Positions 1 through 61,979 of a stretch of 64,000 nucleotides of DNA are shown here, one piece after another. Where the stretch lies: contig JAJUGU010000006.1 of assembly GCA_029265815.1 (NCBI GenBank), positions 62,001-126,000 on the forward strand. Reading direction: 5' to 3'. Source of the stretch: Anaerolineaceae bacterium (GTDB lineage Bacteria; Chloroflexota; Anaerolineae; Anaerolineales; Anaerolineaceae). The notes under the pieces were generated by a model. It was not told the DNA's origin and searched no databases. It saw only the letters and a list, made by a program, of their open reading frames with translations. The position numbers were made by a program, and so were the translations under genes. Positions within the stretch are counted from its first letter, which is position 1, and each line of letters begins with the position of its first letter.

Positions 1-240
1 GCATCCAACATTTGCATCCGCGTGAACGTTATCAAGGTTTTCTGATTGGTAATATGATTCCACATAAGGTTGAATATTGTGACATAGGTTGCATGTTTTA
101 GGATTATAGGTCAATTGCCAGCCGCCATAACCGAGTACAGCGATCAAGAGCACGATAAAAGGAACCAGGAATCCGCCAACCATTAGAAACCCAAGCTTCT
201 TGTTCTTTTTTGGTGAAGCGGTTTTGTTTTCTTCTTTCAT
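1..240 (-). CDS. NapC/NirT-type multihaem cytochrome c, N-terminal part
   Basis: Partial gene running off the left edge; 80 residues are visible from an ATG at 240. A Lys-rich cytoplasmic N-terminus is followed by one hydrophobic segment (about residues 17-38), then a c-type haem motif CNLCH at residues 50-54. The last visible residue is another Cys, probably opening a second haem motif. This layout is that of the membrane-anchored NapC/NirT/NrfH family, which takes electrons from menaquinol and passes them to an extracytoplasmic partner. The next gene upstream in the same direction encodes a Tat-exported FAD reductase, the usual partner type for such a cytochrome. The number of haems and the exact subfamily cannot be seen here. 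Confidence 0.75.
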   Translation of the reverse strand, partial: MKEENKTASPKKNKKLGFLMVGGFLVPFIVLLIAVLGYGGWQLTYNPKTCNLCHNIQPYVESYYQSENLDNVHADANVGC

Positions 241-279
241 GAATATCCTCTTCGGCGAAGATGGTTCAATTGTTGTTAT

Positions 280-307
280 GGGGAGGCTTGCAAACTCAAG
301 CCTCCCC
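280..307 (-). repeat. Intercistronic inverted repeat between FAD reductase and cytochrome genes
   Basis: A perfect 10-bp stem (GGGGAGGCTT / AAGCCTCCCC) with an 8-nt loop lies between the flavoprotein stop and the cytochrome start. On the minus strand no T-run follows it, so it looks more like an mRNA-stabilising or partial-attenuation hairpin than a full terminator. It could give unequal expression of the two genes; that is inference. Confidence 0.5.
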
Positions 308-333
308 ACTTTATTAATTACAAAGACTGTTAA

Positions 334-1860
334 CTACTCTGCATCCCAAGCGGGCTGAGCCACAACATATTTCGCGGCCTGATACCCGAATACCATGGCT
401 CCGGTAATCGCGGGGAGGGTGCGTGGTTCAGGAGGATATTTGATACCGATATTACCCATCAAACCAGTGGCGTAGAGACCTTCGATCGGATTGCCCCAGA
501 CATCGTAGACTCTGGCATTTGGATCGATCACTAAACCCATTTCTGTCGGGAAGTTGGCTGCCATTACTGCGAAGGAGTAGAATGGGCCAGTCTCGATTTT
601 CATAAGAGGGGATTTCTCATTGGCTACCAGAACGTGATCGCGGCCGAAATCAGTGTCAGCACCTGCATCAACCAGGGCATTGTACTTGTTCACAGTTTCA
701 ACCAGAGCAACTGGATCGATTCCAATCTGGGCAGCAAGGTCTTCGAGGGTATCTGCCTGATAGCAAACGCCATTCTGTGATTCCTGGCGTTGCCAGGTAA
801 TTTCCGCGATAGGATCGCTCTTCTGTACTGAGTCGGAAATCACATAGGCGATTCCGTCAGGTTGCACCGCAAGGGCATTCGCTTCAACGGTATGAGTCTC
901 GCTCTCATTTACGAAACGCTGTCCTTTCTTATTTACCAGAATGCCACCTGCGTGATAGAAACCATAAGCGGTGCCCTTTGCGGTAGCAAATGCAACGGCG
1001 GGAGGAGGAGCGATCCAGGCATCTTCTGTTGCAGCGCCAAGCGCCCACGCCATCTTGAAGCCATCACCAGTATTATTAGTGGTTCCGGCTGGTTTTCTGA
1101 GCGAAGGGAGATAGCCGTGATATGCATAGAGCATTTCAGGATTGCCTTCAAAACCACCGTTAGCAAGCAAAACGCCCTTATTTGCCTTAACATATACTAC
1201 TGAACCCTGATATTCAGCTTCAACACCCACAACCCGGTTGTCCTTGGTGATCAATTTCTTTCCCGGGGTTTCGAACAAAACCTGAACACCATTCTGCTGG
1301 CATTGGTCGAAAAGCACAGCAATTGGTTTCGCAGCACCGAGTGTGTGCAAACGCGGCTGATCCATACCTGGCCATGTTTTGATTCCAGCGCATTCGACAC
1401 CGAGGCTCAACAACCATTCATAGAGCATCAATGAGGTAGGCAGAAACACATCGATCATATCGAATTTCTGGAATCCTTCAGGGGAATTATCCTGGAAATA
1501 TTTCAAGAATTTTTCAGGTGAGTCCTCAATTCCCTGTTCCTTCTGCGTGGAAGTTCCGGCAGTGACGAATTCCCAAGCGCTGACTGCACTGCTGCTTTCT
1601 AGTTGAGATTTGCCCTTTTCGAGTGCAATAACAGATGCACCGTCTTTTGCAGCCCAAGCTGCGGCGGTCATTCCGCCTGCACCCATTCCGAGCACCACGA
1701 AATCTGCTTCATAATCCCATTTTTCTGGAAGTGTTGAAGTGGCACCCACTTCCTTGCTGCAGCCAGCCAGCATCGCTGTCGAGGCAAGAGCGCTACCACC
1801 AACAGCCAGTCCCTTAAGAAAACTTCTTCTGGAAAACTCTCCACCTTGCTTTTGGGTCAT
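334..1860 (-). CDS. Tat-exported FAD-binding reductase lipoprotein (fumarate-reductase flavoprotein family)
   Basis: 508 residues. The N-terminus carries a twin-arginine signal (RRSFLKG at 11-17) ending in a lipobox LAGC with Cys34, so the protein is predicted to be exported folded and lipid-anchored. A Rossmann FAD motif GMGAGG is at 58-63, and the RFVNE signature of the FAD_binding_2 / flavocytochrome c family is present. Family members reduce fumarate, urocanate or other alkenes, using electrons from a quinol-oxidising cytochrome; one is encoded just downstream. Compared from memory with Shewanella FccA, the Thr-Thr-Arg that holds the catalytic Arg is replaced by Glu-Thr-His, and the HHTMGG segment reads FPTEMG. 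Fumarate is therefore unlikely to be the substrate, and the true one is unknown. C-terminal Arg (EPRTLP) is kept. Confidence 0.85.
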   Translation of the reverse strand: MTQKQGGEFSRRSFLKGLAVGGSALASTAMLAGCSKEVGATSTLPEKWDYEADFVVLGMGAGGMTAAAWAAKDGASVIALEKGKSQLESSSAVSAWEFVTAGTSTQKEQGIEDSPEKFLKYFQDNSPEGFQKFDMIDVFLPTSLMLYEWLLSLGVECAGIKTWPGMDQPRLHTLGAAKPIAVLFDQCQQNGVQVLFETPGKKLITKDNRVVGVEAEYQGSVVYVKANKGVLLANGGFEGNPEMLYAYHGYLPSLRKPAGTTNNTGDGFKMAWALGAATEDAWIAPPPAVAFATAKGTAYGFYHAGGILVNKKGQRFVNESETHTVEANALAVQPDGIAYVISDSVQKSDPIAEITWQRQESQNGVCYQADTLEDLAAQIGIDPVALVETVNKYNALVDAGADTDFGRDHVLVANEKSPLMKIETGPFYSFAVMAANFPTEMGLVIDPNARVYDVWGNPIEGLYATGLMGNIGIKYPPEPRTLPAITGAMVFGYQAAKYVVAQPAWDAE

Positions 1861-1925: not shown

Positions 1926-1960
1926 GCCCCATCGGGTATTGTTTGGATACCCGATGGGGT
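1926..1960 (-). terminator. Rho-independent terminator after the response regulator gene
   Basis: A perfect 13-bp stem (CCCCATCGGGTAT and its complement) with a 7-nt loop, followed on the minus strand by CTTTTTA. It lies between the regulator stop at 2041 and the FAD reductase start at 1860, separating the two-component operon from the reductase operon. Confidence 0.8.
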
Positions 1961-2040: not shown

Positions 2041-2670
2041 TTACAGGATACCCTTTTGTTTGGCCAGTAAAACTGCCTGTATGCGTGTTTTTGTGCTAGT
2101 TTTGCTTAATATTTCTTTGATGTGTCCTTTGACTGTATTTTCGCTCAAGTTTAATTGATCGCCGATTTCCTGATTTGTATATCCCTCTGCAATCAAACGT
2201 AAAATTGAAATCTCCCTACTTGTTAGAACCTTTGTACCAACAGGTTGGTGTTTGACGTATTCAGTCAGAAGGTCGGTTGCTCGTGGATCAAGTACATGAT
2301 GACCTTTTAAGGCGGTCATCAGTTGTGAGGGAAGGTCCAGATTTTCAGCGTCTTTAAGGAGGTAACCTCGTGCTCCTGCACGCAGGCATGCATCCACGCG
2401 GCTGCGGTCAATAAATGCAGTCAGGATGATGATGGCAATATCCGGATGTGATTTGATGATCTGTTCACAAACCTCGATACCAGTAAGGTCTGGCAACAGC
2501 AGGTCAAGCAAGATTAGATCCGGTTGGACCTTATCCACCAGTTTGATAGCATCTTTTCCAGTAGTGGCTTCTCCGACCAGCGTGAAACGTGAATCCTGAT
2601 CCAAAATGGATTTTAATCCACGGCGAACTAATTCGTGATCATCAACAATGAGAATTTTATATGCTTTCAT
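2041..2670 (-). CDS. NarL/LuxR-family response regulator
   Basis: 209 residues with an N-terminal receiver domain (acidic pair D10-D11, phospho-acceptor D56 in LLDLLLP, and the conserved Lys in LLKDA). A C-terminal GerE-type helix-turn-helix follows (LTSREISILRLIAEGYTNQE, then LSENTVKGHI). It overlaps the preceding histidine kinase gene by 14 bp, so the two are probably translationally coupled and form a cognate pair. A strong terminator follows. The nearest downstream genes on the same strand are the FAD reductase and cytochrome, which are plausible but unproven targets. Confidence 0.93.
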   Translation of the reverse strand: MKAYKILIVDDHELVRRGLKSILDQDSRFTLVGEATTGKDAIKLVDKVQPDLILLDLLLPDLTGIEVCEQIIKSHPDIAIIILTAFIDRSRVDACLRAGARGYLLKDAENLDLPSQLMTALKGHHVLDPRATDLLTEYVKHQPVGTKVLTSREISILRLIAEGYTNQEIGDQLNLSENTVKGHIKEILSKTSTKTRIQAVLLAKQKGIL

Positions 2671-4792
2671 TTTTTTTCACTTCTGGGTAGGGAAAATTTG
2701 CCTTAATCAGAACACCTTGTTCATCACCATTTTTTATGGAGATGACTCCATGTTCCTGGAGGACTAGTTGTTTGATGATTGAAAGTCCAAAATGCAATTC
2801 ATTACCGTCAGCTTCATTCTCATTGGTTTCCTTCAGACCGATTCCATCATCCTGAATTAATAATACAATGGATTCCTTATCATAAGTAAGATTCACAATG
2901 GCGGCTGTGGCATAAGAATGTTTGGCAATATTCGAGAGAGATTCGCGCACGACGCGGTAGATTGCTTCAGTTAATGACGGTCTAATAGCAGGCAATTTAT
3001 TCGAATTAATAAAGGTGGTTGCGATACCTGTTTTTTCTTGGAAATCTGAAACCATATCCTCGATAAGTGTGGTAATCCCTCTACTTTGAATATGGTTTGA
3101 AGGTTCCCGTAGAGCGAAAATTGCGCTGCGTAACTCGAGTGAACTCCGTGAAATCAAGGTTCGAATCGTTTTTAAAGAGGCCTGCAGTGACGGATCCTTA
3201 TCGAACTTCTGTATCAATTGATCAGCTTCCATACCGAGGGAAAATAACAATTGGGCGACCGAATCATGCAAAGTTTGCGCTATCCTTTGACGTTCCTGCA
3301 ACCTGGTAATCTCCTCGTTCTTTTTATGCAGCCGTGAATTTTCTATACACAATGTAATGTTGTTGCGAATGTATTTAAATAGTATTCTTTCTTCGGTTGT
3401 TATTTTATGATCAGGTGAAAAAAGTGCACCGATTTCGCCAAATAATTCTCCCTTAATGAAGATTGGTATGGCGATCGCGGGTTGAGTTTGGTGTGATGTA
3501 ATGAAGTTCTGCTTGAGAATCGTTCTAGCTTGCTTATTGTTTGGAAACGAATTTGCGATGACATCAGTAGAATATTCGATGTGATTCTGATCCTGTAAGC
3601 TTAATAACTCTTCTTGACAAAGTGCATATACTTTGTTTTTCCAATTATCGGGCGGGGAACCATATCTACCAACGATTTCGAAGGTTCCTAATGTTTTTTG
3701 ATACATGGAAAAATAACAACATTCACAAGACAACAATTCACCGATCAGCATGGTGATCGTTTGAAAAACATCCGGAAATGGCAGCTGAGAATCAAAAATC
3801 TTAAAGATCTCTTGAAAACCTTCAGCAACTTTCCGCCTATGTTCTGCCTCTAGTCTTCGTTCCTGTTCCACTTGATACAATCTTGCGTTTTCCACAGCGA
3901 TCACTGCGCTTGGGGCAAGCATACTGACAATGCGTTCATCTTCGTCTTCTAGTTGGCCTGTAAATTTATCAGCAACCATTAGTGCTCCAAGTACCTTGTC
4001 TTCGTAGATCAACGGGACGCTGATAAATGATTTCACTTGCAAGTGGTCACTGCGGAAAACGCTGGGATTGTCCCATGCATCCACTACCCTGACTGGACGC
4101 CGTAGACGGATGGAAGAACCGGTATTTGAACCGTCGATTGGAATAGGATAACCAATGTATACATCTGAACTGAAGGAGCCGGAAATTGCGGTAGTCACCA
4201 GTTGATCGCCATCCACAAGCATCAATATCGTGGTCTTTGTATTCGTTAAATATCTGGCTGTATCAGCGATGAGTTGCAGCACCCGATCAAGTTCGAGATG
4301 ACTTGAGATCGCTTTTTGAACCTCAATGATCAGTTGGTTTTCCTTGGTTCTTTTTTGGATGGAGGATAATTGGGCGTTCTTTTCTATTGTTAGCCCAAAA
4401 ATTCTTGCATGCGACAGAGCATTGTGCAAGTCCGTTGGTGAATATGGATGCTGCTCATTGCTTCCAACCACAAAAAAACCCAGCAATTTTTCAACGAAAA
4501 TTGGAGCAATTAGAAATGTAGGCTCGATCGCAGTTTCATCTTGTGCAGGAGATTTAACCCAGGGATTAAGATACATGATGAAGTCATCTTCGATATCATT
4601 GATCTCAACCTTTTCTTTGGAAAACCATTCACTAATATACCGGGTTGATAGTTTCGAAATTAATTTATCTTTGGCAATTTCTCCATTCTCTGCCTGAATA
4701 GATAATGAGCCGTTCCAGATAAAGATAGCAGAGTAGTCATTTTTGTATTGCTGCGAAATGTTTTGCAATAGTCCTGTATAGAAGGTATCCAT
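2657..4792 (-). CDS. GAF-domain sensor histidine kinase (NarX/HisKA_3 type)
   Basis: 711 residues from the ATG at 4792. The frame continues to a GTG at 4837, but the ATG has a purine-rich GAAGAAAA just upstream and is preferred. No membrane segment is evident, so this is probably a cytosolic sensor. At least two GAF-like regions (about 145-300 and 315-490, each ending in an AVENARL- or CIENSRL-type helix) precede the HisKA_3 dimerisation helix, with phospho-acceptor His509 in LHDSVAQ. The HATPase domain shows an N-box (RESLSNIAKHS), a DDGIGL G1 box and an HFGLSI G2 box. The ligand is unknown; GAF domains in such kinases may sense small molecules, redox state or gases. Confidence 0.9.
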   Translation of the reverse strand: MDTFYTGLLQNISQQYKNDYSAIFIWNGSLSIQAENGEIAKDKLISKLSTRYISEWFSKEKVEINDIEDDFIMYLNPWVKSPAQDETAIEPTFLIAPIFVEKLLGFFVVGSNEQHPYSPTDLHNALSHARIFGLTIEKNAQLSSIQKRTKENQLIIEVQKAISSHLELDRVLQLIADTARYLTNTKTTILMLVDGDQLVTTAISGSFSSDVYIGYPIPIDGSNTGSSIRLRRPVRVVDAWDNPSVFRSDHLQVKSFISVPLIYEDKVLGALMVADKFTGQLEDEDERIVSMLAPSAVIAVENARLYQVEQERRLEAEHRRKVAEGFQEIFKIFDSQLPFPDVFQTITMLIGELLSCECCYFSMYQKTLGTFEIVGRYGSPPDNWKNKVYALCQEELLSLQDQNHIEYSTDVIANSFPNNKQARTILKQNFITSHQTQPAIAIPIFIKGELFGEIGALFSPDHKITTEERILFKYIRNNITLCIENSRLHKKNEEITRLQERQRIAQTLHDSVAQLLFSLGMEADQLIQKFDKDPSLQASLKTIRTLISRSSLELRSAIFALREPSNHIQSRGITTLIEDMVSDFQEKTGIATTFINSNKLPAIRPSLTEAIYRVVRESLSNIAKHSYATAAIVNLTYDKESIVLLIQDDGIGLKETNENEADGNELHFGLSIIKQLVLQEHGVISIKNGDEQGVLIKANFPYPEVKKNESI

Positions 4793-5185
4793 TTTTCTTC
4801 GATCTTTTTTTATCTGGATTTTGATCTGCAATAACACTAACTATATAAGAATAGTTGGACAAAGTCATCTGTAGTATTGCATTCTTAAAGCTGCAAATCG
4901 GTCTGTAAACTTGGGGGTTTCCTTGTCATTCTAAAGAAAAAGCACGAATGTGATGTTTATCAACCATTGTACAGGATTCTGATTATCCGGTGTATTTCTA
5001 TTTATCCTTAAGAAACGGCTAAAGGTTTTTTATTGTAATCATGATTGTTGAAGTTTGATGTTTACAAACTATTTAATTTGTATTTATAATGTAACTATCA
5101 CTATCGTTCCTTCACGCGGGCTAATATTCGATTGAGACTGTTCCGACAAAGATCACGAACAGTCTAGTAACAGGCATTTATTCTT
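4793..5185. other. Divergent intergenic region
   Basis: An AT-rich region of about 390 bp between the minus-strand kinase and the plus-strand zinc-ribbon protein. It must hold both promoters, but no convincing -35/-10 pair was singled out. A loosely repeated TGATGTTTA element occurs near 4951 and 5058. No gene or RNA is recognised. Confidence 0.4.
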
Positions 5186-6931: not shown

Positions 6932-9256
6932 ATGAAGTTCAAGTACCTGGGAAAGAGTTATAACCGGCCAGATGCGATCGCCAAGGTGACGGGTAAAGCC
7001 GTTTATCTTGACGATATCCGAATCCCTGGCATGCTTCACGCCGCTATCTTGCGACCTGAGTACGCGCACGCCAACATCCTCAATATCTTCACCGAGGAAG
7101 CTGAAAAAATGCCTGGCGTGGTAAAAGTTGTTACCGGTAAGGGCTGCAAGTATCACTACGGCGACAACATTAGAGATCTTGTCCCAATGGCTATCGATAA
7201 GGTGCGATATATTGGTGAGCCGGTTGCTGCTGTCGTCGCGGATACAAAAGCGAACGCTGAAGCAGCTTTGGCGAAGATTAAGGTTGAATACGAACCCTTG
7301 CCAGTTTATATCGACGGTCGTGAAGCCATGAAGCCAGATGCTGTGCTTATTCACAAGGAAAATGGCCAATACTGGCATTTACCTCATATTAAACCCACAC
7401 CCGGGACAAACATCGCGAACACCTATCATCTGATAAAAGGCAAGGGTGCCGAAGGTTTCAAGGATGCTGATGTGATTGTTGAGGGTGATTTCCATTACCC
7501 GCTGGGTTCCTGCGCTGCCATTGAGCCACACGGCGCAATTGTGTGGTTCAAAGAAGACCATACGATCGATGTATGGTCATCTTCCATTTGCCCCTTTATC
7601 ATCCGCGAAGATCTGGCGCATTCCTACGGGGTTCCTGTCTCTGATGTGCGCGTTCGAATCCCCGATATTGGTGGCTGCTTTGGCTATAAATCGGATATTA
7701 CGGTTGAACAGACCATCGCCTGGATCGCCAGTTTTGTACCAGGACGACCTGTTAAATGGGTAGCAAGCCGTAAGGAAGACATCACTTCAACACTTTTAGG
7801 GCACGGTATTCACTCTAAGATGAGAATTGGCGCCAGGAAGGATGGCAAACTCGTTGCCATTCAGAACGAAGTTGTTCACACGGGTGGCGCCTACGCTGAC
7901 ACTCCTGTCAATGTCACCATGGCCGCCACACACAACTGCGCTGGTGGCTATGAATGGGAACATTGTGATCTGATTGGTTATACCGTATATACCAACACGC
8001 CACCGGTGGGTGCATTCCGCGGTTACGGCCACCAGGAAGGTCAATTTGCGGTTGAACGTTTGATGGACATCCTTGCTCGAAAGTTGAACATGGATCCTAT
8101 CAAGCTGCGCGAAATGAATTACCTGTCTGAAGGTAAAACCAACTCACTTGGCGAAATGATGTGGAAAACTCACGGCGATATCCGCCAGTGTTCTGATTAC
8201 GTCAAAGAAAAGGTATTCAGCAAACCGAAACCCGCTGAAGACGAAAATTATTATTATGGCCGAGGTTTTGCAGCGGTCAGTAAATCACCAAAAGGTGCGC
8301 CATTCTCAACGAAAGGCTGCTACATGAAGATGAACATCGACGGTAGTGTGAATGTGTCGATGGGCGGAGCAGAAGTTGGACAGGGTTTGCGAACCGTGGT
8401 GCGGCAGGTGACGGCTGAAGCACTCAAGATCGATCCTGAGCGGGTGCGCGTTTACAATGATATTGACACACTATATTCACCTTATGAATGGCAAACCATC
8501 GGCTCAATGTTCACCACACAGGGCGGGCGGGCAATCATCCGTGCTGCTGATAAGCTGATCGCAATCTTAAAAAATACGGCTGCTCAGGTGCTGAAAACCG
8601 ATGTGGATTATCTTGAATATGACGGAGAGTATGTCTACCTGCGCAATGATCCCAGCATCCACGTTTCAGTGAAGGAAATCACTCGCGGCTACATTACGTC
8701 AGATGGAATCACGGTAGGCGAAATGGCCCAGGCGGTATCTGATGCCAGACTGCCACGCTACATGAATCCGGATGCGAATGGCCAGGGAAGCCTTGGTGTG
8801 AGTTACACCTTTGGTGCAACTGCGGCAGAAATCCGTATCGAAAAGAAAACTGGCAAGGTAATTGTTGATAACTTTACCTCGGCCTTCGATATCGGCCAGG
8901 TGATCAATCCACAGCAGGCGCGAGGTTCAGTAACAGGCGGTGTAACGATCGGAATGGGCGCTGCAATCTCTGAAAAAGTTGAATTTTCTGAGGATGGCAA
9001 AATCCTTAACCCACACCTGTTTAAATACCATATCCCAACCTACAAAGAGGCACCGAAGCAGGATGTTGAATTCATCGAAAATCCCGACGCGATAGGTCCA
9101 TTTGGAGCCCGCGGGATTGGTGAACATTCAGTCATTGGTCCGGCACCGGCGATTCTGAATGCGATTTACGATGCTGTGGGTATCGATTTTTATGAAATTC
9201 CCGTTACTCCAGATGTGCTTAAGAAAGCTCTGGAATCCAGGCAAGAGGTGAAATAA
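6932..9256 (+). CDS. Xanthine dehydrogenase-family molybdenum hydroxylase, large (molybdopterin) subunit
   Basis: 774 residues, the usual length for the large subunit of the CoxL/XdhA family. The N-terminal hammerhead domain begins near YNRPDAIAKVTGKAVYLDDI and is followed by two Mo-pterin-binding domains. Recognisable motifs are GGCFGYK, the substrate-side AFRGYGHQEG loop, GGAEVGQG, and the C-terminal GARGIGEHS with the expected catalytic Glu731. These enzymes hydroxylate or oxidise heteroaromatics, aldehydes or CO at a Mo-cytosine- or Mo-pterin-dinucleotide cofactor. The active-site loop gives no confident substrate. Its stop overlaps the start of the iron-sulfur subunit by one base (TAATG), so the two are coupled. 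No FAD subunit, cofactor-insertion chaperone (XdhC-like) or MobA-like gene lies next to it. Confidence 0.9.
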   Translation: MKFKYLGKSYNRPDAIAKVTGKAVYLDDIRIPGMLHAAILRPEYAHANILNIFTEEAEKMPGVVKVVTGKGCKYHYGDNIRDLVPMAIDKVRYIGEPVAAVVADTKANAEAALAKIKVEYEPLPVYIDGREAMKPDAVLIHKENGQYWHLPHIKPTPGTNIANTYHLIKGKGAEGFKDADVIVEGDFHYPLGSCAAIEPHGAIVWFKEDHTIDVWSSSICPFIIREDLAHSYGVPVSDVRVRIPDIGGCFGYKSDITVEQTIAWIASFVPGRPVKWVASRKEDITSTLLGHGIHSKMRIGARKDGKLVAIQNEVVHTGGAYADTPVNVTMAATHNCAGGYEWEHCDLIGYTVYTNTPPVGAFRGYGHQEGQFAVERLMDILARKLNMDPIKLREMNYLSEGKTNSLGEMMWKTHGDIRQCSDYVKEKVFSKPKPAEDENYYYGRGFAAVSKSPKGAPFSTKGCYMKMNIDGSVNVSMGGAEVGQGLRTVVRQVTAEALKIDPERVRVYNDIDTLYSPYEWQTIGSMFTTQGGRAIIRAADKLIAILKNTAAQVLKTDVDYLEYDGEYVYLRNDPSIHVSVKEITRGYITSDGITVGEMAQAVSDARLPRYMNPDANGQGSLGVSYTFGATAAEIRIEKKTGKVIVDNFTSAFDIGQVINPQQARGSVTGGVTIGMGAAISEKVEFSEDGKILNPHLFKYHIPTYKEAPKQDVEFIENPDAIGPFGARGIGEHSVIGPAPAILNAIYDAVGIDFYEIPVTPDVLKKALESRQEVK

Positions 9257-13320: not shown

Positions 13321-15786
13321 ATGGACTTTGGAACAATTCAGCAAGTGGATATCGACGAACAAATGCGTTCTGCATATCTCGATTATGCGATGAGCGTAAT
13401 CGTCTCGCGTGCTTTGCCAGATGCGCGGGATGGATTAAAGCCGGTTCACCGGCGCATCCTGTATGCAATGTTTGACATGGGTATCCGGTCAAATTCGGCT
13501 TTCAAGAAGTCAGCCCGCATCGTTGGTGAAGTCCTCGGTAAATATCATCCGCATGGTGATTCAGCGGTTTATGATGCTATGGCACGTATGGCGCAAAATT
13601 TCTCTATGCGTTATATGCTGGTAGATGGCCAGGGCAACTTTGGATCGATTGATGGTGATGCACCCGCTGCGATGCGTTATACCGAGGCAAGGCTGCATGC
13701 TGCGGCTGAAGAAATCCTGGCGGATATTGATAAGGAAACGGTAGACTTTGTGGATAATTTCGACGGCTCCTTGAAAGAGCCGGCTGTGTTGCCTGCGCGT
13801 CTGCCCAACCTTTTATTGAATGGGGCTTCTGGAATTGCCGTAGGTATGGCAACCAGTATTCCTCCGCACAATCTGCGTGAGATATCCAGTGCTATCGGTC
13901 ACTTAATCGATAACTACGACCGGATCGATGAGGTGTCTACAGAAGAATTGATGCGTTTTGTTCAGGGTCCGGATTTTCCTACCGGCGGGGTGATTGTGGG
14001 CCGTGACAGCATTCAGCAGGCTTACAGCACGGGTAAGGGAAGACTGGTAGTGCGGGGTATGGCTCACATCGAAGAGATGAAAGGCAACCGGCATCGAATT
14101 GTAATCACTGAAATTCCTTACCAGGTTAATAAAACCGGGTTAATCGAGCGAATCGCTGAACTCGCGCGTGATGGAAAACTGGATGCCATTTCTGATTTGC
14201 GTGATGAATCTGACCGGCGTGGCATGAGCATTGTGATTGAGCTGCGCCGCGGTGCAGCACCCAAACAGGTTCTGAATCAACTGTACAAATATACACCGCT
14301 GCAGTCAACGTTTTCGGTGCATTTCCTGGCTCTGGTGAATGGTGAACCAAGATTACTCTCTCTGAAAAGGGCTTTACAAATTTACATTGAACATCGTGAA
14401 GAAATTATTTCGCGACGTTCAAAATTTGAACTCGAAAAAGCCAGGAATCGCGCCCATATACTCGATGGTCTCTTGATCGCCCTGGCCAACCTCGATGAAG
14501 TGATTAAAACCATTCGAGAATCAAAGGATGCTGATTTAGCCAAGGAAAGACTCATATCGCGATTTAAACTGTCTGAACCTCAAGCCCAGGCAATTCTGGA
14601 TATGCAATTGCGCCGACTGGCTGCGCTGGAACGCCAGAAGATTGAAGATGAACACCGAGAGGTTTTAGCCCGGATCGCTTATCTCGAGGATCTGCTCGAA
14701 CATCCACGAAAAATTCTAGGGTTAATTAAGGAAGATCTGACCGCATTGAATGAAAAGTTTGGTGATGAACGACGAACTCGCATTGTCGGCGAAACCCATG
14801 AGGAATTGAAAGAAGAAGACTTAATTCCTGATGAATCCGTGCTGATCACTTTTACCCAGAAAGGGTATATCAAACGAGTGGCTGCCAATCTTTATCGCAC
14901 GCAGGGCAGGGGTGGTCGTGGTGTATCAGGACAAACCGTGAGAGAAGAAGATGAAGTCTTGTTCCTCATTCCTGCGCGCACTCTACATACAGTGCTATTC
15001 TTCTCCGATCGCGGCAAGGTGTATTCAGAAAAGGTCTATCAAATTCCAGATGCAAACCGGACGGACCGCGGTATCCCAATCGTAAATGTGCTTTCACTCG
15101 ATGCGGGTGAGAAGATCACTGCAGCGGTGTCCGTTCCAAATTTTGATGAAGGTTCTTACTGCACGATGGCTACTCTCAACGGCCGTGTCAAACGGGTTTC
15201 GCTGTCAGAATTTGCAAGCGTTCGCCCTTCAGGCTTAATCGCCATTACGCTTGAAGACAAAGATCAACTTTACTGGGTAAGACTAACCAACGGGAATAAT
15301 GAGATTATTATGGTTACCCGCCAGGGTCAGGCACTACGGATTGATGAATCCGATATCCGCAGCATGGGACGCCAGGCGGCTGGCGTAACCGGCATTAAAC
15401 TTAAAGGTGATGACCTGCTGGCCTCGATGGATGTCATTGAACCCGAAGGGCAATTGCTTGTGGTTACCGAAAAAGGGTACGGTAAACGCTCAAAACTGGA
15501 TGAATATCCTGCCAAAGGGAGAGCAACCGGTGGGGTAGCGACGATTGATCAGAAAAATCTTTCTAAGATTGGTAATATTTCGGCAGCCAGGGTTGTTCAA
15601 GAAACAGATGAGATCTCTATGATCTCCTCTGGCGGGATCATGCTGCGTTTGAAGGTGAAGGATATTTCGATGAGTGGTCGCGCCACGCGTGGATTCAAGT
15701 TGATGGACCTTGGCAGCGACGATGTTGTGGCCTCAGTAGCGAGGATGGTAAATGCAGAAGTGCAAAAAGCTGATAACGGAGACTAA
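13321..15786 (+). CDS. gyrA: DNA gyrase subunit A
   Basis: 821 residues, normal for GyrA. The ribosome binding site GAGG lies 8 nt before the ATG. The winged-helix breakage domain has the catalytic Tyr120 in [10 protein letters not shown]. The quinolone-determining region keeps Ser81 and Asp85 (GDSAVYD), the residues equivalent to E. coli Ser83 and Asp87, so no common resistance substitution is present. The C-terminal DNA-wrapping domain carries a GyrA box at 528-534 reading QGRGGRG, close to the QRRGGKG consensus and in favour of gyrase rather than ParC. It forms the A2B2 gyrase with GyrB, which is not in the window. A terminator follows directly, so it appears monocistronic. Confidence 0.96.
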
Positions 15787-15807
15787 AACGTTCACAAACC
15801 TTAATTT

Positions 15808-15840
15808 AAAAGAACCCTGGTATTTACCGGGGTTCTTTTT
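15808..15840 (+). terminator. Terminator after gyrA
   Basis: A 14-bp stem with one G-T wobble (AAAGAACCCTGGTA paired with TACCGGGGTTCTTT) and a small loop, followed by T5. It starts 22 bp after the gyrA stop. Confidence 0.85.
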
Positions 15841-15866
15841 ATCTTGTTCATGCATTAAATACTTGT

Positions 15867-16085
15867 CTAAATTGGGGGAAAAACTTTCTGGAAGAGAATT
15901 AACACGAAAGCTCCGATGATTACCACCATCAGGAAAAGAAAGCAGGCGATAATGAACCGCTGTGGAGCGGTCATTCCCAGAAAAGGGCCGGATTTTTTTT
16001 CTGAAGAATAACTAATGGTGTTTTCTTCTTCCAGAGGTACATCTGGGAATTCCGTATTTACTGAGTTGCGTAAATCATCCAGCAT
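15867..16085 (-). CDS. Small single-pass membrane protein
   Basis: 72 residues with an acidic N-terminus and one strong hydrophobic segment (about 44-66, RFIIACFLFLMVVIIGAFVL) near the C-terminus. It overlaps the end of the biotin ligase gene by 11 bp, which supports real translation and a shared transcript. No family is recognised and the function is unknown. Confidence 0.6.
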   Translation of the reverse strand: MLDDLRNSVNTEFPDVPLEEENTISYSSEKKSGPFLGMTAPQRFIIACFLFLMVVIIGAFVLILFQKVFPPI

Positions 16086-16887
16086 TAGGTCCTCCTAAAT
16101 CGGTTGAAGTGCTCGGGCGTAGATGTACATCACCGATTTCAAAACTCATTTCCTGTCCGTCATCAAGAACCAAAACCAGGTTTCCCTGTGTGTTGATGCC
16201 TTTTATCTTACCTATTATAGATGGTTTTTCCGAATGTTCAATACGAACCTGTTCTCCAACAAACGCCAGATGATCTTCCCACGTCTTCATAAACTCAGAA
16301 GTACCGAGCTTTGCTCTCCAATGTTCAAGAGAAAGCAGCACGTTTTTCAGAATTTCGTATCGATCAATCGATCGAGAGGTTTCATCTTCAAGGCTGGTTG
16401 CAGGAAATTGCTGGAATTCTAACGGGGGAACCGAACCTCGGGAAATATTAATGCCAATCCCAAGTACAACTCCGGCTAGATCACCTTCCCTCCAAGAGGC
16501 TTCAACCAAAATCCCACAAAACTTTTTGCGGTTGATCAGCACGTCATTCGGCCATTTGATTTCTACTGCGGTCCCCAGGCATATTTCGACTGCCTCACGG
16601 ACAGCAATTCCGCAAAGTGGCGAGAATAATGGAATCATATCTCTTTCATTTGCCCGGGGTTTAAGAATCAAAGTGAAGGCGAGGGATGATCCTGGGCGAG
16701 TGACCCAGTGTCGGTCGAACCGCCCGCGCCCCTTTGTTTGTTCGTCGGCGATAACCAGTGAAAAGTCTTGGGCTTCAGCGTCTATCCATGCAAGTGCTTC
16801 ATCGTTAGTCGAGCCAATCGATTCGTAATATTTTAACTGACTAACGATTGTTTGAGATAAACATTTTTGTAGACTAACAGGAATCAT
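16075..16887 (-). CDS. birA: Biotin--[acetyl-CoA-carboxylase] ligase
   Basis: About 270 residues. The ATG at 16887 is taken as the start; a TTG two codons upstream is possible, and neither has a well-spaced ribosome binding site. The catalytic core shows the biotinyl-AMP loop GRGRFDRHW, the KWPNDVLIN motif and GILVEAS, followed by a small C-terminal SH3-like domain. No N-terminal helix-turn-helix is present, so this is a monofunctional ligase without the biotin repressor role of E. coli BirA. It attaches biotin to carboxylase carrier proteins. Confidence 0.92.
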   Translation of the reverse strand: MIPVSLQKCLSQTIVSQLKYYESIGSTNDEALAWIDAEAQDFSLVIADEQTKGRGRFDRHWVTRPGSSLAFTLILKPRANERDMIPLFSPLCGIAVREAVEICLGTAVEIKWPNDVLINRKKFCGILVEASWREGDLAGVVLGIGINISRGSVPPLEFQQFPATSLEDETSRSIDRYEILKNVLLSLEHWRAKLGTSEFMKTWEDHLAFVGEQVRIEHSEKPSIIGKIKGINTQGNLVLVLDDGQEMSFEIGDVHLRPSTSTDLGGPNAG

Positions 16888-31094: not shown

Positions 31095-33407
31095 TTATTC
31101 AAAAACAATCCGATGTGCCTGTGGTTGATCTATTATGATTTTTTCTCCTGACGGCGCAATGATTTCGGTCCGATCAGACCTTAGGATCATCTTTGTTTGA
31201 TTATATTGTACCGTAACCGGGTTTGGATTTCTATTAAAATGCGTGACAATCATCTCATGTGGTGTGATTTTTTTAATGCCACAAACAGCCAGGAATAATT
31301 TTATCGGGATGAGATCCTGTAGACGCACTTTAGCCATGGATTCAGATAATTTTGATTTTGCTTGCCTTTCAATTGAATCGGGGTCAAAATGATGGCGGAA
31401 GAATCGTTCTGCAAGGTCAGGACGGTGGTAATTTAGCATTCCTTCAATAATCATTGCAGCCAAAAAATTTGGAATTCGATCAACTGATGCTTTCTTTTCT
31501 GATGAGAAGAAAGATATTCCGTTCATCCCCAAGAAAGATTCAGTGTTGGTTGACTGGAGGATTTTTTCCGCCTGGCGTGGTGAAGGGATACCAGCCCAAA
31601 GCGGAAGAAGTGAAGTGATGTCGCGCCTGCTAAGATCAACCTGCCCGATCTGGCCCTCATCGCCTTTTTTCCAGTTTACAATTTCGATTGCGTCGAGGGT
31701 TGAAAAGGATTGGGTTGTAACACCAATACCGGTGGTACCGATCCACTCGAAGGACTGATGGGAAAGTGCTGTTTCAATCTCACCTTCGTTTCCCATACCT
31801 TTCAATCTGCAGCAAAAATCGGGTGAAGTTCTGGTTTTTGTCTGGAGACGGATGAATAACCTGCCGGGCGTTGTGATCTTACGCGTAGGTTTGTGTTTTC
31901 CTCCCTGTTTAAATTCACACAAAATATTTTCGCTGTAATTGGCACCAGAGATGCAGTCTTGATATTGATAAAATCCTGTATCCTCATCCCATAATTCTTC
32001 TATTTTTCTGGTTATATTACGTTGAGTGTCTTCCAGCCAAACCTGGAACAGGTTAGATTTCAACCATTTTTCGATCTGTAGGAGAGATTTACATTCTCGA
32101 TATAGCAGTGATAACAAGAAAGGACTTTCACTGACCTTGTGTTTTATCCAGAGATGAGCCACCTGATCCAATTCGAAAGCATCTGGGTTTAGAAATCTAA
32201 TCTGAACCGGATGGGTTAATTCTTGATGACACAGAGAATGCCTGGAAAACCAGTTCTGATAGAAATGCACCAACCTGGGATATATCCCTTCCAACCAGTG
32301 GACATCTTCATTACTGAAAAAAACTTCGCAAACGAGGCTCGCAAGCATTGGCAGAGCAAGATGTCCGGTAAATTTATGATTTGTGCTGATCTGAAAGTCT
32401 ATCCATCCGTTATCTTCCTGGGCATCCAGGATGTTTTGGATGAATTCCCTGACAGCATTAGGCCTACCTGGTAAAAGATTTTGTGCCATCAACCAGGTGT
32501 CGGGAATGGTCTGCCCGCACCATTCTGGATTTATCTCTAAGACTTCTTCACCGGGGTGAAAACCTAGATCTGGATCACGACGCAGGATAAAAGTTGAAAA
32601 CTTGATTTGCTGAACGGCAGGCATTATTAGTTGGTATGCTTGGTTCTGTGATTGGTTAAGGGATTCAGCCAGATTGTGCTGCGGGCTTTCAATAAAGATT
32701 TTTTCATGTCTGTCAACCATCTCAATTTTGAATTGTTCTACATCCAGCTGATGAGAAGAATAATGGCGTGCCAGATTGAATGATGCATCCTCTGAGGCTT
32801 GTGAGGCCATTACCCAGGTTACCTGACGTGTTGCACCTGGAGTCAGAAGCATTTTGATCGATAAACCAGGGTAAACTGATGAGCTTTCTTCTGGGCCACC
32901 AGTTAAATAGAATAGGGGGCATAAATTACTGGTCTTTCCTCGCAGAACTGTATTCATACCCATTCGAGCAGAACTCATTGTTTGCCCACCTGGCAATGGA
33001 TCAAGCTGAACCAACCAATCCATTTGTAACTGCCGGGAGACGTTGGAAGTGTTCGTAAGGGTGAATTGCCCGGTGATCACCTGTGATAATGGAACCCAAA
33101 TTTTGAGCTGAGCGTCTAAGGATAAAAATGGAGTAAAAAGGATTTCTGTGAAATTTGTCGATCGAAAGTTCACCTGAGGAAACTTATAGAAATCTGCAGG
33201 GTTTGATGTTGATCGATCATTGGAGGAAAATTCCGGAAAAATCAACATACGCCTGGCACGCAATCCGAAAGTTGTGGAAATTGTAATAGGCTTTCCTGAT
33301 TCTACCGTCAGTGACCAAACCTGATCGTCAGTAATGGATGGCCTGGAAAATCTCACATCGGCTGCCAGGATCTGGTGGATTACTTTATCATTGCCGGATA
33401 AGGACAT
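31095..33407 (-). CDS. Putative (alpha/alpha)6-barrel glycoside hydrolase-like protein
   Basis: 770 residues, no signal peptide. The N-terminal 250 residues look like a beta-sandwich (FTLTNTSNVSRQLQMDWLVQ). The central and C-terminal parts are helical, with phrases typical of GH63/trehalase-like six-hairpin enzymes: NGWIDFQISTNHKFTGHLA, LWDEDTGFYQYQD, and LLPLWAGIPSPRQAEKIL. A short beta domain closes the protein. The likely role is hydrolysis of an alpha-glucoside or alpha-mannoside in the cytoplasm, but the substrate and catalytic acids are not certain. It sits 18 bp upstream of the DUF970 pair in the same direction, so it may share their transcript. Confidence 0.6.
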   Translation of the reverse strand: MSLSGNDKVIHQILAADVRFSRPSITDDQVWSLTVESGKPITISTTFGLRARRMLIFPEFSSNDRSTSNPADFYKFPQVNFRSTNFTEILFTPFLSLDAQLKIWVPLSQVITGQFTLTNTSNVSRQLQMDWLVQLDPLPGGQTMSSARMGMNTVLRGKTSNLCPLFYLTGGPEESSSVYPGLSIKMLLTPGATRQVTWVMASQASEDASFNLARHYSSHQLDVEQFKIEMVDRHEKIFIESPQHNLAESLNQSQNQAYQLIMPAVQQIKFSTFILRRDPDLGFHPGEEVLEINPEWCGQTIPDTWLMAQNLLPGRPNAVREFIQNILDAQEDNGWIDFQISTNHKFTGHLALPMLASLVCEVFFSNEDVHWLEGIYPRLVHFYQNWFSRHSLCHQELTHPVQIRFLNPDAFELDQVAHLWIKHKVSESPFLLSLLYRECKSLLQIEKWLKSNLFQVWLEDTQRNITRKIEELWDEDTGFYQYQDCISGANYSENILCEFKQGGKHKPTRKITTPGRLFIRLQTKTRTSPDFCCRLKGMGNEGEIETALSHQSFEWIGTTGIGVTTQSFSTLDAIEIVNWKKGDEGQIGQVDLSRRDITSLLPLWAGIPSPRQAEKILQSTNTESFLGMNGISFFSSEKKASVDRIPNFLAAMIIEGMLNYHRPDLAERFFRHHFDPDSIERQAKSKLSESMAKVRLQDLIPIKLFLAVCGIKKITPHEMIVTHFNRNPNPVTVQYNQTKMILRSDRTEIIAPSGEKIIIDQPQAHRIVFE

Positions 33408-49319: not shown

Positions 49320-51782
49320 TCATCGTTTGAAAGCTGGTAGTTCAATTTTCTTCCCGTTTTGTTCCACAATAAAATATGGCAGCCAGATCACAGCAAAAAT
49401 TTCTGTGAAAATATCACTTTTTGTCGGCCGGATGCTAATTTCAGTGATCTCATCAACGACATTAGCCCATTTCTCATTGACTTCTTTAACCACTTCTTCT
49501 TTGGCTTTTTGAAGTTCTGCGAGCTGCTGCTGGTATTGTTTTAAGGTTTGCTGTTCTGCTACAAGTCGATCCTTTGCCTCTGAAGCCATTCTGGTTTTGG
49601 TGATTGTGCTGGTAATACTGCGTTTTCTTCCTGTCAACATGCCAAAAACCGCTGCGCCACCGGTGGCAAGGGTTTCGAGCCGGCGTTGATTAACAGAGTT
49701 TTCGGCAGAGTTAACTTCAAGTTGTTGGGATTCTATTTTACGCTGCATAGCCGCGATTTTTGTGTCGAAGGTTTTGGTGGCTTTTTCGATTTCGGTATAT
49801 ATCGTATCTTCAACAGCTTCCCGGCATTTTTGATGGAATTCAGCTGCAGTCATTTCAGGTGTGGCATATACTTTGAGTTTTGTGTTGGCTTTCAATTTCA
49901 ACGCACCTCTGCGGTATAACCACTCAAGAAAATCTTTTTCGAGAGCGGCAACTCTCTTACTATCCGAAAGCCAAGCGGGCACTGGATGAAATTGAGTTTT
50001 GGGAAGAGGCTGGGTTTCTAATTTTTGTTTATCAATAGCTTCTCCGGCAAAGTCTTCCCAACGCACCAGACCGCTGCCTGGTTCTTCAAGAATGGCAGAA
50101 CTTTTACTGATTTGCTCGACATTGTACTGGCGGGAAAGATACCGTACTTCTGCCTGTGCAAGAATTCCTGCACGGTAGACAATCCCTTCAGAGGTGATTT
50201 GATTTGTGATGCCCGCCGCTGCTGCAGATTCGCTGACCCCCAGGTTATTCGCCAGAAAGAATTCAGGGATACTCCCTGGAATAGCTGGGCGGCTGGTGGT
50301 GATTCCTGAACCTTCTTTTATGCCAGTGGCTTTCTTTTGTGTTGATTGAACTGTTGGTTCTGCGGTGGTTACCGCAGCGCTGCTTTTTGCAAGAGCGTTG
50401 GCAGCAGCCAGTTGATCACGTGTCATCGGACCAGCCAGAAAATTCATTGCCCAGCGTGTGTTGAACAGGATGGGGGCAGATTTATACACACTGTGCAACA
50501 AAAAAACTCGTTTTTGTAATCCAGAAATGAGTTTATCAAGTGTTTTTAAGTCGGTGGTTCCACCTGCTGATGATAAACCGTCGAGCAAGCGCTGTTTATC
50601 TTGATCTGTCTGTAAACGGCCGATCATCCAGGTGCCGGCGTTTGAAAGGGCTTTGTAATCAACGTCGACCGGGTTTTGGGTAGCCAGAAGCAATCCAACC
50701 CCAAAGGCGCGGGCCTGTTTGAGCATGCGCAGCATGACAGTCTTAGAAGGGGGGTTAGCGACTGGAGGGAGATATCCCATGATCTCATCGAAATAGAGGA
50801 TAGCGCGTAAATTTCCGGTTCCGCGTTGCCCACGCATCCAGCTCTCGACCGCAGCAAAAAGCAGGGTGACAAAAAACATACGTTCGTTTTCGCTCAAATG
50901 AGCCAGATAGAAGATCGAGTGGCGCGGCTTTCCATCTTTAGTGTAAAGCAATGCGCCGATATCAAGCGGCTGACCCTGCTGCCAGACCTGGAAGGAGGGA
51001 GAGGCAAGAAAATTGTTCAACAAGAGCGCCAGTTCAAAGCGGTCCTTCTCTGGGAAAAATGAATCCATCGGAAACGCTCCTAGGCGATCCATAGGTGGGT
51101 TTTGAACCTGCAAAATGAGGTCAGTAAGGGTTAGAGAACTGCCGCCTGACCAGGCTGTTTCGATAAGGTTAGAAAGGAGGATGTGTTCACGCGAACGCAG
51201 TGGATCGATGTCACTTAGTCCCACAAGACCTAAAAGCGCGGTGACCGTAGTGGAGATCCTCTCGCGCAGCACTTCAGCATTCTCTTCCCATGGAATCGAT
51301 GGAACTTCAAAAGATGAAAGGATATTCACCGAGATACCGGAACTGGAGCCAGGGGAGTAAATGGTGTAATCGGCTGCGTCAGTCAATGCTTGAAGATCTT
51401 CTTGCCCTAAACCCCAGTCTTGAAGGCCTTTTTTCCAGCGGGCAGCAGTTTCTTCTGCCATTTGAGGAACCGTTTTACCCTCTCTTTTTGCCGCCTCCGG
51501 ATCGATCCATGGTTCGAAATCAGCCGCCTGTTGGGCTGGAAAATGTAGTAGGAGGTTGGTCAGGTCTCCTTTTGGATCGACGATGATCGCAGGAGTGCCG
51601 TGTAGAGCAGCTTCTTCAAGCAATCCAATACAAAGACCAGTTTTACCAGAGCCAGTCATGCCTGTGACGACTGCATGCGTGGTGAGATTTGCAGGATCTA
51701 ACGTAACGACCTCATCTGACATGGCATTTTTCTTAGAATCGAATACTTTCCCAAGGAAATAATTAGGATTTGAAGGAGACAT
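49320..51782 (-). CDS. HerA/DUF87-type ATPase of unknown function
   Basis: 820 residues. An N-terminal HerA-like P-loop ATPase has Walker A GMTGSGKT at 41-48, VDPKGD shortly after, and Walker B AILYFDEIMGYLPP. The RLQTDQDKQRLL region resembles the arginine-finger part of HerA/FtsK-like motors. The C-terminal third contains a beta domain and a long Lys/Glu/Gln-rich coiled coil (about 690-780). It is likely a hexameric DNA- or protein-translocating ATPase, but no NurA nuclease partner is nearby. It is divergent from a PP2C-like membrane protein with a 46-bp gap, so their promoters overlap. Confidence 0.8.
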   Translation of the reverse strand: MSPSNPNYFLGKVFDSKKNAMSDEVVTLDPANLTTHAVVTGMTGSGKTGLCIGLLEEAALHGTPAIIVDPKGDLTNLLLHFPAQQAADFEPWIDPEAAKREGKTVPQMAEETAARWKKGLQDWGLGQEDLQALTDAADYTIYSPGSSSGISVNILSSFEVPSIPWEENAEVLRERISTTVTALLGLVGLSDIDPLRSREHILLSNLIETAWSGGSSLTLTDLILQVQNPPMDRLGAFPMDSFFPEKDRFELALLLNNFLASPSFQVWQQGQPLDIGALLYTKDGKPRHSIFYLAHLSENERMFFVTLLFAAVESWMRGQRGTGNLRAILYFDEIMGYLPPVANPPSKTVMLRMLKQARAFGVGLLLATQNPVDVDYKALSNAGTWMIGRLQTDQDKQRLLDGLSSAGGTTDLKTLDKLISGLQKRVFLLHSVYKSAPILFNTRWAMNFLAGPMTRDQLAAANALAKSSAAVTTAEPTVQSTQKKATGIKEGSGITTSRPAIPGSIPEFFLANNLGVSESAAAAGITNQITSEGIVYRAGILAQAEVRYLSRQYNVEQISKSSAILEEPGSGLVRWEDFAGEAIDKQKLETQPLPKTQFHPVPAWLSDSKRVAALEKDFLEWLYRRGALKLKANTKLKVYATPEMTAAEFHQKCREAVEDTIYTEIEKATKTFDTKIAAMQRKIESQQLEVNSAENSVNQRRLETLATGGAAVFGMLTGRKRSITSTITKTRMASEAKDRLVAEQQTLKQYQQQLAELQKAKEEVVKEVNEKWANVVDEITEISIRPTKSDIFTEIFAVIWLPYFIVEQNGKKIELPAFKR

Positions 51783-54338: not shown

Positions 54339-55538
54339 TTATGAAATGACGAGCAGGGGAATAGGGATGAAAGTGAGTATAAAGATGATCAGAGCGACCA
54401 CTCCAAGTATTTTACGGCCAGTACCCAATTTGGTGATCTGATCTAGCGGCTCGGCATAAATGCGCCCGAGCAGAAAAACCAGAACTGCCCAGATCCACCA
54501 GCCAGACCAAACGAAGCCTAATCCAACCAGCGCAACCAAAAAGAAGGGAAATATACGACGCGACCACTTTTTTCCGAAAAGCAGGTGAAAAATGTGACCA
54601 CCATCAAGCTGTCCGGCAGGAATGAGATTGAGGGAGGTAACGAGTAAACCTGCCCATCCAGCCCAGGCGACCGGGTGAATCATCACATCCAAACCACCAT
54701 ACGGAAAGGGTCTTCCTGTAAAGAAGTATTTAATCCAGTAGAGGATGGGATTAACGCCACCATAACTTACAGGCTGGGGGAGTAGTTGATCAAAACTGAT
54801 GTATTTAAGGAACAGGTAAGTGAGCGAATTGCCTTCCATCTGGATTCCCTCACCGGCTGGAAAGCTCATCGGGATTGTGTCTAACCGTGACAACGATAGA
54901 CCGATCAGGATGACGATGACTGAGACGATGTACCCGGCGATTGGACCGGTAATACCGATATCCATTAAAACACGCTTGTTCTTGGGAACTTCTTTCATGT
55001 TAATAAAAGCACCCATCGTGCCAAGTGGGGTGAATGGCAGCGGGATAAAAAATGGCAGGGTTACATGGACCCCGTGTGCACGACCTGCGAAGTAATGTCC
55101 GAATTCGTGAGCAGCGAGGATCCCCAATAAACTGACGGCAAACGGCCATCCTGCTTCAATCAGTTGACCGGCTGCGGTAATCCAATTCTTCGATAGTGGA
55201 TCTTCGAGGCTGGTCAGACCCCCAGAGAGCAGTACACTGATCACCGTTAAGATGAACATGAGCAGGTTAATCCCAGGTCTTGAAGGTTTTGGATCTGGCT
55301 GAGAAGGGACCAGAAGAATTACCTGGGTGTCATTTTCTTTCCTAAACAAAGGGGTGAGCGCATACGGTTTAAGAGATTCAGATAGCTGGTCATACGCGGC
55401 AGCTGTATCATTAACAACCAGGTGACCGCGATAACGTTTGATGAATCCTAACTCGACATTTCCATCGGTGATATCCTCTACTGCGAATATGCGCCTGACC
55501 AGCTGATCTAGATGCTGTGTGGTATCGAACTCATCCAT
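54339..55538 (-). CDS. Site-2 protease family (M50) intramembrane metalloprotease
   Basis: 399 residues from the ATG at 55538; the longer frame runs into tRNA-Sec and is rejected. A soluble N-terminal domain (about 1-85) precedes six or more membrane segments. The zinc motif HEFGH is at 144-148, and the third ligand is in LIPAGQLDGGH. S2P-type enzymes cut membrane-bound regulators within the bilayer. The N-terminal soluble domain replaces the PDZ domain of RseP-type members. It starts 28 bp after tRNA-Sec and may be co-transcribed with it. Confidence 0.9.
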   Translation of the reverse strand: MDEFDTTQHLDQLVRRIFAVEDITDGNVELGFIKRYRGHLVVNDTAAAYDQLSESLKPYALTPLFRKENDTQVILLVPSQPDPKPSRPGINLLMFILTVISVLLSGGLTSLEDPLSKNWITAAGQLIEAGWPFAVSLLGILAAHEFGHYFAGRAHGVHVTLPFFIPLPFTPLGTMGAFINMKEVPKNKRVLMDIGITGPIAGYIVSVIVILIGLSLSRLDTIPMSFPAGEGIQMEGNSLTYLFLKYISFDQLLPQPVSYGGVNPILYWIKYFFTGRPFPYGGLDVMIHPVAWAGWAGLLVTSLNLIPAGQLDGGHIFHLLFGKKWSRRIFPFFLVALVGLGFVWSGWWIWAVLVFLLGRIYAEPLDQITKLGTGRKILGVVALIIFILTFIPIPLLVIS

Positions 55539-55566
55539 TTGGCAGCTCCTGTTCTTGAAGAAAAAG

Positions 55567-55660
55567 GCGGGAATGGATGGGAGTCGAACCCACCGCGGCC
55601 CGCAGAGCGACCCGCCACCGATTTTGAAGACCGGGGAACCCACCGGGACTCATCCACTCC
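55567..55660 (-). tRNA. selC: tRNA-Sec (anticodon TCA)
   Basis: 94 nt. Diagnostic features are the 8-bp acceptor stem (GGGAGTGG / CCATTCCC, one G-T pair), a 6-bp D stem, the anticodon loop CTTCAAA giving TCA, a long variable arm and the T arm GTGGG TTCGACT CCCAT. The discriminator is G. It implies that the organism decodes UGA as selenocysteine; selA, selB and selD are not in this window. Confidence 0.95.
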
Positions 55661-55728
55661 CGGAATTAAGAATACCCCAGCCGTGGTAATTTGACAAGCA
55701 ATCGTTGATCAAAAAAGGAGTCTTCTTG

Positions 55729-61978: not shown

Positions 61979-61979
61979 C

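Follow-up and report, generated by a model that had tools for sequence, protein, structure and literature searches.

Among the described systems with which the gene pair treated here can be compared, the Cgr1/Cgr2 pair of Eggerthella lenta DSM 2243 deserves to be mentioned first. In the part of their paper that deals with the active site, Koppel et al. (2018; PMC5953540) state that Cgr2 diverges at six of the seven fumarate-reductase residues, four of the five urocanate-reductase residues and three of the five ketosteroid-dehydrogenase residues. We found the Tyr333 codon of cgr2 in strain DSM 2243 at the coordinate published there, and residues 333, 381, 532 and 536 (Y, M, Y and G) agree with the same account (PMC5953540). 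A survey by Meheust et al. (2021; PMC8238504) gives, in one of its passages, a count of 147 clusters of separate fumarate-reductase-like and cytochrome genes in 108 genomes.

Here we describe a pair of this kind at one end of a stretch of 64,000 nucleotides (the window) from an Anaerolineaceae bacterium (assembly GCA_029265815.1, contig JAJUGU010000006.1, positions 62,001 to 126,000). It is best read as a divergent example of a modular respiratory system that is already known, in which a haem donor is combined with an exchangeable flavin reductase.

The FAD protein and its cytochrome

The reading frame at positions 334 to 1860 of the minus strand encodes a probable reductase of 508 amino acids that belongs to the FAD_binding_2 family (PF00890; E 3.1e-49, 168.7 bits against a gathering cut-off of 20.4). 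Its first 33 residues form a Tat signal with the motif SRRSFLKG, followed by Cys34 of the lipobox MLAGC (positions 1759 to 1860); PF10518 TAT_signal scored 19.4 bits, under its cut-off of 22.7. These motifs predict export of the protein and its attachment by a lipid to the external surface of the membrane; a lipid anchor had also been proposed in the earlier note. The dinucleotide-binding motif GMGAGG (residues 58–63, positions 1672 to 1689) has two glycines, Gly58 and Gly60, that are nearly invariant in the aligned homologues. The segment RFVNE, with an Arg315 that is invariant across 44 sequences (alignment A1), is present. Near the FAD most aligned rows have GGN/TS, whereas this protein has LESSS, so that tight binding of FAD is not assured. 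An AlphaFold model (mean pLDDT 86.9, pTM 0.86) matches urocanate reductase first, at a Z value of 40.0, and then FccA-type fumarate reductases and ketosteroid dehydrogenases, at Z values of about 37–39, in each case over the whole length. The solved relatives of this type among the matches listed are 22–30% identical, a similarity far beyond chance, and none of them qualifies as a characterised enzyme of close identity.

The cytochrome gene lies downstream on the minus strand, separated from the FAD gene by 93 bp. Since the window edge cuts this gene, only the N-terminal part is covered (positions 1 to 240, minus strand, with the ATG at 240); the full Cgr1-like protein, read from contig 21 of the same assembly (positions 61701–62240), has 180 amino acids, five CxxCH motifs and a single N-terminal hydrophobic segment. 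It scored 29.5 bits with PF03264 NapC/NirT (gathering cut-off 24.1), a family assignment that concerns residues 11–86 only, and Cytochrom_c3_2 matches residues 108–168. The combination of a cytochrome and a Tat-lipoprotein FAD protein noticed earlier is real, and it agrees with the definition of a Cgr1/Cgr2-type pair, which is an adjacent Tat FAD_binding_2 protein and membrane-anchored multihaem cytochrome. The broader claim that it resembles known reductases fed by NapC/NirT cytochromes stands as far as Cgr1/Cgr2 is concerned, but the residue set of fumarate and urocanate reductases is absent.

Relatives of both components occur elsewhere in this genome. A second Cgr1-like five-haem cytochrome (locus L109, positions 8424–9023, minus strand) is 42% identical to the first and is flanked by TatA-like and ccm-like genes; the reading frames seen over those 18 kb include no FAD reductase. 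On a different contig (contig 1, positions 73567–77074) the FAD protein has two paralogues of the FAD_binding_2 family in tandem, and 1.5 kb on each side showed no haem gene.

Surroundings and electron supply

A LuxR-type response regulator (positions 2041 to 2670, minus strand), possibly the regulator of the pair, and a GAF-HisKA_3 sensor histidine kinase (positions 2657 to 4837, minus strand) lie upstream of the FAD gene; they are linked to the reductase pair by their position only, and may induce it. Between the regulator and FAD genes there is a terminator-like hairpin of 13 bp with a T tail (positions 1927 to 1959, minus strand; folding z −4.77), and between the FAD and cytochrome genes a hairpin of 12–13 bp (positions 279 to 308; folding z −5.44). 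Since scans of promoters (11 observed, 10.8 expected) and of terminator-like sites (6 and 5.2, respectively) gave counts near expectation, both hairpins rest on their folding z-scores. The hairpin at positions 279 to 308 could separate the FAD and cytochrome transcripts; because it has no T tract when read on the minus strand, it may also stabilise or tune the upstream message instead of ending it. Past the cytochrome gene, on the same strand, a gap of about 660 bases is followed by ArsR, Pyr_redox_2 and DsrE-family genes.

Regarding electron supply, nuoL within the window scores above the TIGR01974 cut-off. The genome has two matches above cut-off to the cytochrome c assembly family PF01578, one of them spanning a TAG, within a cluster resembling ccm that lies close to TatC- and TatA-like genes (names from translations; only PF01578 was scored). 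MenD reached 32.1 bits in this genome against a cut-off of 244.2, and a menaquinone pool or quinone donor is therefore putative.

Elsewhere in the window, a molybdopterin-binding xanthine-dehydrogenase-like subunit is encoded at positions 6932–9256 (plus strand). A tRNA-SeC gene (positions 55566–55661, minus strand), which suggests the use of selenoproteins by this organism, adjoins a frame of 434 amino acids (positions 54339–55643). Neither this frame nor those at positions 49320–51782 (minus strand, 820 amino acids), 51829–54261 (plus strand, 810 amino acids) and 31095–33407 (minus strand, 770 amino acids) had an NCBIfam match at 1e-10.

Residues in the active-site columns

Residue columns were read from 45 resampled MAFFT alignments, made in three modes with 25 homologues each. 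Foldseek and VIA-align report ranges only, with no superposed coordinates behind residue equivalences, so that the equivalences given here rest on sequence alignments. In FccA, we take Arg402 to be the catalytic acid and His504 and Arg544 to be substrate residues.

The column of Arg402 is occupied in all 45 alignments by His323, the last residue of RFVNESETH (residues 315–323, positions 892 to 918, minus strand), and that of His503-His504, again in all 45, by Phe437-Pro438 of the segment FPTEMG (residues 437–442, positions 535 to 552, minus strand), which replaces HHTMGG. A phmmer alignment placed the latter segment with an offset of one residue as compared to MAFFT, and still without a His at this point. 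The replacement of Thr-Thr-Arg by Glu-Thr-His and of HHTMGG by FPTEMG, proposed in the earlier note, is thereby confirmed: alignment with FccA, UrdA and Cgr2 placed no Arg at the Arg402 position and no His at the His504 position. Glu378 of FccA corresponds to Tyr299 in 36 of the 45 alignments and Arg381 to Tyr302 in 39, and both are replaced wherever some residue aligns. No stable assignment was obtained for the column of His365, which holds Pro286 in 20 alignments and Ala284 in 16.

The statement in the earlier note that the C-terminal Arg is retained could not be upheld. In the segment KYPPEPR (residues 474–480, positions 421 to 441, minus strand), the Arg544 column contains Tyr475 in 35 alignments, Pro479 in eight, Glu478 in two and Arg480 in none; Tyr475 also occupies the columns of Tyr487 of 3-ketosteroid dehydrogenase (KSTD) and Tyr532 of Cgr2, in 36 alignments each. 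Because the pLDDT averages only 69 over loop 471–480, the assignment of the Arg544 column is the least certain in this protein.

With His323, Pro438 and Tyr475 in the three columns, identification as a fumarate reductase of the flavocytochrome c type was rejected, and so was identification as a urocanate reductase, the corresponding Arg402, HHTMGG and Arg544 columns of UrdA being unmatched. Judged by sequence, the protein is neither of these enzymes.

Homologues and their cytochromes

A set of 81 homologues, including Cgr2, was collected with tblastn (E ≤ 1e-12), frames under 440 amino acids being excluded. These rows were chosen by similarity to the FAD protein and are not a census, and a few are doubtful (L053_7971 is 16% filled; L069_1324 and L059_1 are apparently one protein, entered twice). 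For L058 (G714, contig 95, positions 14799–16307), two TAA codons were reported in the matched stretch, yet a frame of 500 amino acids is listed as open.

The Arg402 column in this set holds Tyr in 46 proteins, Arg in 15 and His in one, and the Arg544 column Tyr in 51 and Arg in 13. Since Arg402, His504 and Arg544 are all kept in only eight of the 81, loss of the fumarate-reductase residues is the common state in this sample, and the rarity that had been implied for the changed active site is not supported. Cgr2, too, lacks these residues according to the passage on its active site (PMC5953540). What is uncommon is the combination of His in the Arg402 column with FPTEMG.

L056 and L104 reach the highest identity over the greater part of the protein (39–40%, residues 50–468), and both retain the Arg/His/Arg set; no cytochrome adjoins the L056 gene in the sequence read around it. 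The best E-values belong to L102 and L103 (36–37% identity), both with Tyr in the Arg402 and Arg544 columns, which were found later and stand outside the tree and the counts for 81 rows; among the reading frames of at least 100 amino acids in 7.3 kb near L102, no haem gene was recognised by eye.

In the tree the FAD protein (branch length 1.35) joins L036 and three proteins of genomes G712, G713 and G1005 with an SH-aLRT value of 88 and long branches. The fork is open and the deepest forks have a support of 12, and no sister group is claimed. The protein falls outside the group of 16 rows that contains FccA and UrdA, and also outside the KSTD group, for which no adjoining cytochrome is listed with any of its 16 homologues.

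Pairing with a cytochrome was scored for the 65 homologues, out of 82 distinct ones, that have 600 bp on both sides: an adjacent multihaem cytochrome occurs with 13 of the 39 that have a Tat-like motif, as identified by a loose regular expression in the first 230 residues of the stop-to-stop frame, versus none of the 26 others. The query and Cgr2 are counted among these 13, and since three loci are each counted twice (L055/L064, L012/L036 and L038/L014), they represent about ten separate places. Within its own class, the cytochrome is 46–49% identical to those adjoining FAD proteins in genomes G062, G028 and G013, the first two of which adjoin Arg/His/Arg reductases, and 29–37% identical to at least five others. 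Among the reductases that are paired with a cytochrome, the three active-site columns hold eight or more different combinations of residues, so that the cytochrome looks like a shared donor and the reductase like the part that varies.

The genomes sampled yielded no orthologue with clearly more than 40% identity, and the function of the protein therefore rests on distant analogy. In the own class 25 of 298 genomes, counting the own one, had a match at E ≤ 1e-30, the best other being 38% identical; in the own phylum only the own genome among 400 reached E ≤ 1e-45, these two scans sharing some genomes. Six matches at E ≤ 1e-20, one being the own genome, were found in 61 genomes of the family. 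For five genomes reached through individual loci, matches at E ≤ 1e-40 were obtained in four. The class to which the Coriobacteriaceae genome G712 belongs (296 genomes) gave two matches at E ≤ 1e-55, one of them in G712 itself, and four genomes of that class all had matches at E ≤ 1e-25, the best being 34–40% identical. The class of G714 (72 genomes) gave two matches at E ≤ 1e-52, G714 among them. The best match listed from a plasmid collection was 34% identical, a scan of genome contigs gave six loci of at most 33% each, and a single scan of viral contigs, requiring exact words of eight residues, gave none. Among the matches listed, at most five candidates per genome were scored in the 298- and 296-genome scans and at most three in the 400-genome scan, up to 67 being seen; because of this, and of the exact words of eight residues required in contig scans, orthologues may have escaped.

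Proposed function

We propose, with a probability of about 0.75, that the two proteins constitute a respiratory reductase of the Cgr1/Cgr2 type. The membrane-anchored five-haem cytochrome would receive its electrons from the quinone pool, or else from a different membrane donor, and hand them to the FAD of the Tat-exported lipoprotein, which, if its signals act as predicted, is located on the outside of the membrane. The reduced flavin would then reduce an organic acceptor outside the cell; by analogy with the superfamily, the most likely chemistry is the addition of hydride to an activated C=C bond. The adjacent GAF-kinase/LuxR pair may switch the reductase on.

Because the carboxylate clamp is missing, with His323, Tyr299, Tyr302, Phe437, Pro438 and Tyr475 in the aligned columns, a less anionic acceptor, perhaps aromatic or enone-like, seems more likely than a dicarboxylate; the retention of Arg/His/Arg by the homologues of highest identity would count against this. 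The earlier suggestion of an unrecognised electron acceptor is likely to be correct, but it could equally be made for many members of the family. It is a tentative and rather doubtful extension that the protein founds a separate subfamily of reductases, with His323 at the catalytic Arg/Tyr position and an aromatic clamp of Tyr299, Tyr302, Phe437 and Tyr475, and that it respires an acceptor without precedent in any organism, for which the adjacent kinase would be the sensor.

An extracytoplasmic FAD dehydrogenase working in the opposite direction, which oxidises its substrate and passes electrons via the cytochrome into the membrane, in the manner of ketosteroid or cyclohexanone dehydrogenases, is an unlikely alternative. 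The three top PDB matches by phmmer are 3-ketosteroid dehydrogenases, and the fold agrees over its whole length with that of ketosteroid and cyclohexanone dehydrogenases (Z about 37–39). Characteristic of KSTD is the combination of Tyr318, Tyr487 and Gly491; Tyr475 fits Tyr487, but His323 takes the column of Tyr318 in all 45 alignments and Leu482 that of Gly491 in 38, on which ground identification as KSTD was rejected. The position in the tree and the resemblance of the cytochrome to Cgr1 and to the N-terminal region of NapC/NirT proteins also argue against a dehydrogenase.

We consider it improbable that the protein is a divergent reductase of fumarate or another dicarboxylate, in which non-equivalent residues such as Arg480 hold the substrate carboxylate. 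Arg480 lies one to five residues from the Arg544 column, in the loop that was modelled at low confidence, L056 and L104 are Arg/His/Arg proteins, and the top NCBIfam match is TIGR01813 flavocytochrome c, though at 199.8 bits, which is below the cut-off of 285.45 for membership. Against this, none of the alignments retains Arg402 or His504, Glu378 and Arg381 are replaced wherever a residue aligns, and the protein stays outside the FccA/UrdA group. A decaying or inactive paralogue, as might be imagined from the long branch, the altered FAD segment and the three other genomes of the genus (two without a match at E ≤ 1e-20, one with a partial match of 33%), is hardly credible in view of an intact frame of 508 codons with its signal sequence, an intact five-haem partner and a well-predicted fold.

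Comparison with known systems

The fold of KSTD and, in most alignments, the Tyr at its Tyr487 column are shared by the FAD protein, which differs in having His323 and mostly Leu482 at the other two positions and in its place outside the KSTD clade. In structure UrdA comes closest (Z 40.0, 28% identity), but it possesses the Arg, HHTMGG and Arg that are absent here. With the flavocytochromes c3 FccA and Ifc3 the protein has the fold, the FAD_binding_2 domain and an RFxNE-type segment in common; it differs in the columns of Arg402, His504, Arg544, Glu378 and Arg381. In those enzymes, as described in a passage of the survey (PMC8238504), the haem domain is on the same chain, whereas here it is a separate protein. 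The clusters counted in the same survey (PMC8238504) are similar to the present locus in that reductase-like and cytochrome genes are separate but clustered.

In Cgr1/Cgr2 of E. lenta DSM 2243 the FAD gene likewise precedes the cytochrome gene, and Cgr1 is an anchored cytochrome with five sites (CX2-4CH) that is 32% identical to the present one (E 4e-18) and belongs to the same type. Cgr2 has a Tat-like motif and a lipobox, lacks the fumarate-reductase residues, and has its Tyr532 aligned with Tyr475. The two FAD proteins are only 25% identical, however, they have Trp (Cgr2) versus His323 and Gly536 versus Leu482, and they are placed separately in a tree with weakly supported deep forks, so that the present protein was rejected as an orthologue of Cgr2. 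The arrangement as such was already known, and changed active sites are common in this large and mostly uncharacterised family. The present pair shows the Cgr1/Cgr2 arrangement in a lineage that does not belong to the Eggerthella group, and one type of cytochrome combined with reductases of many active sites would provide a modular route to new electron acceptors.
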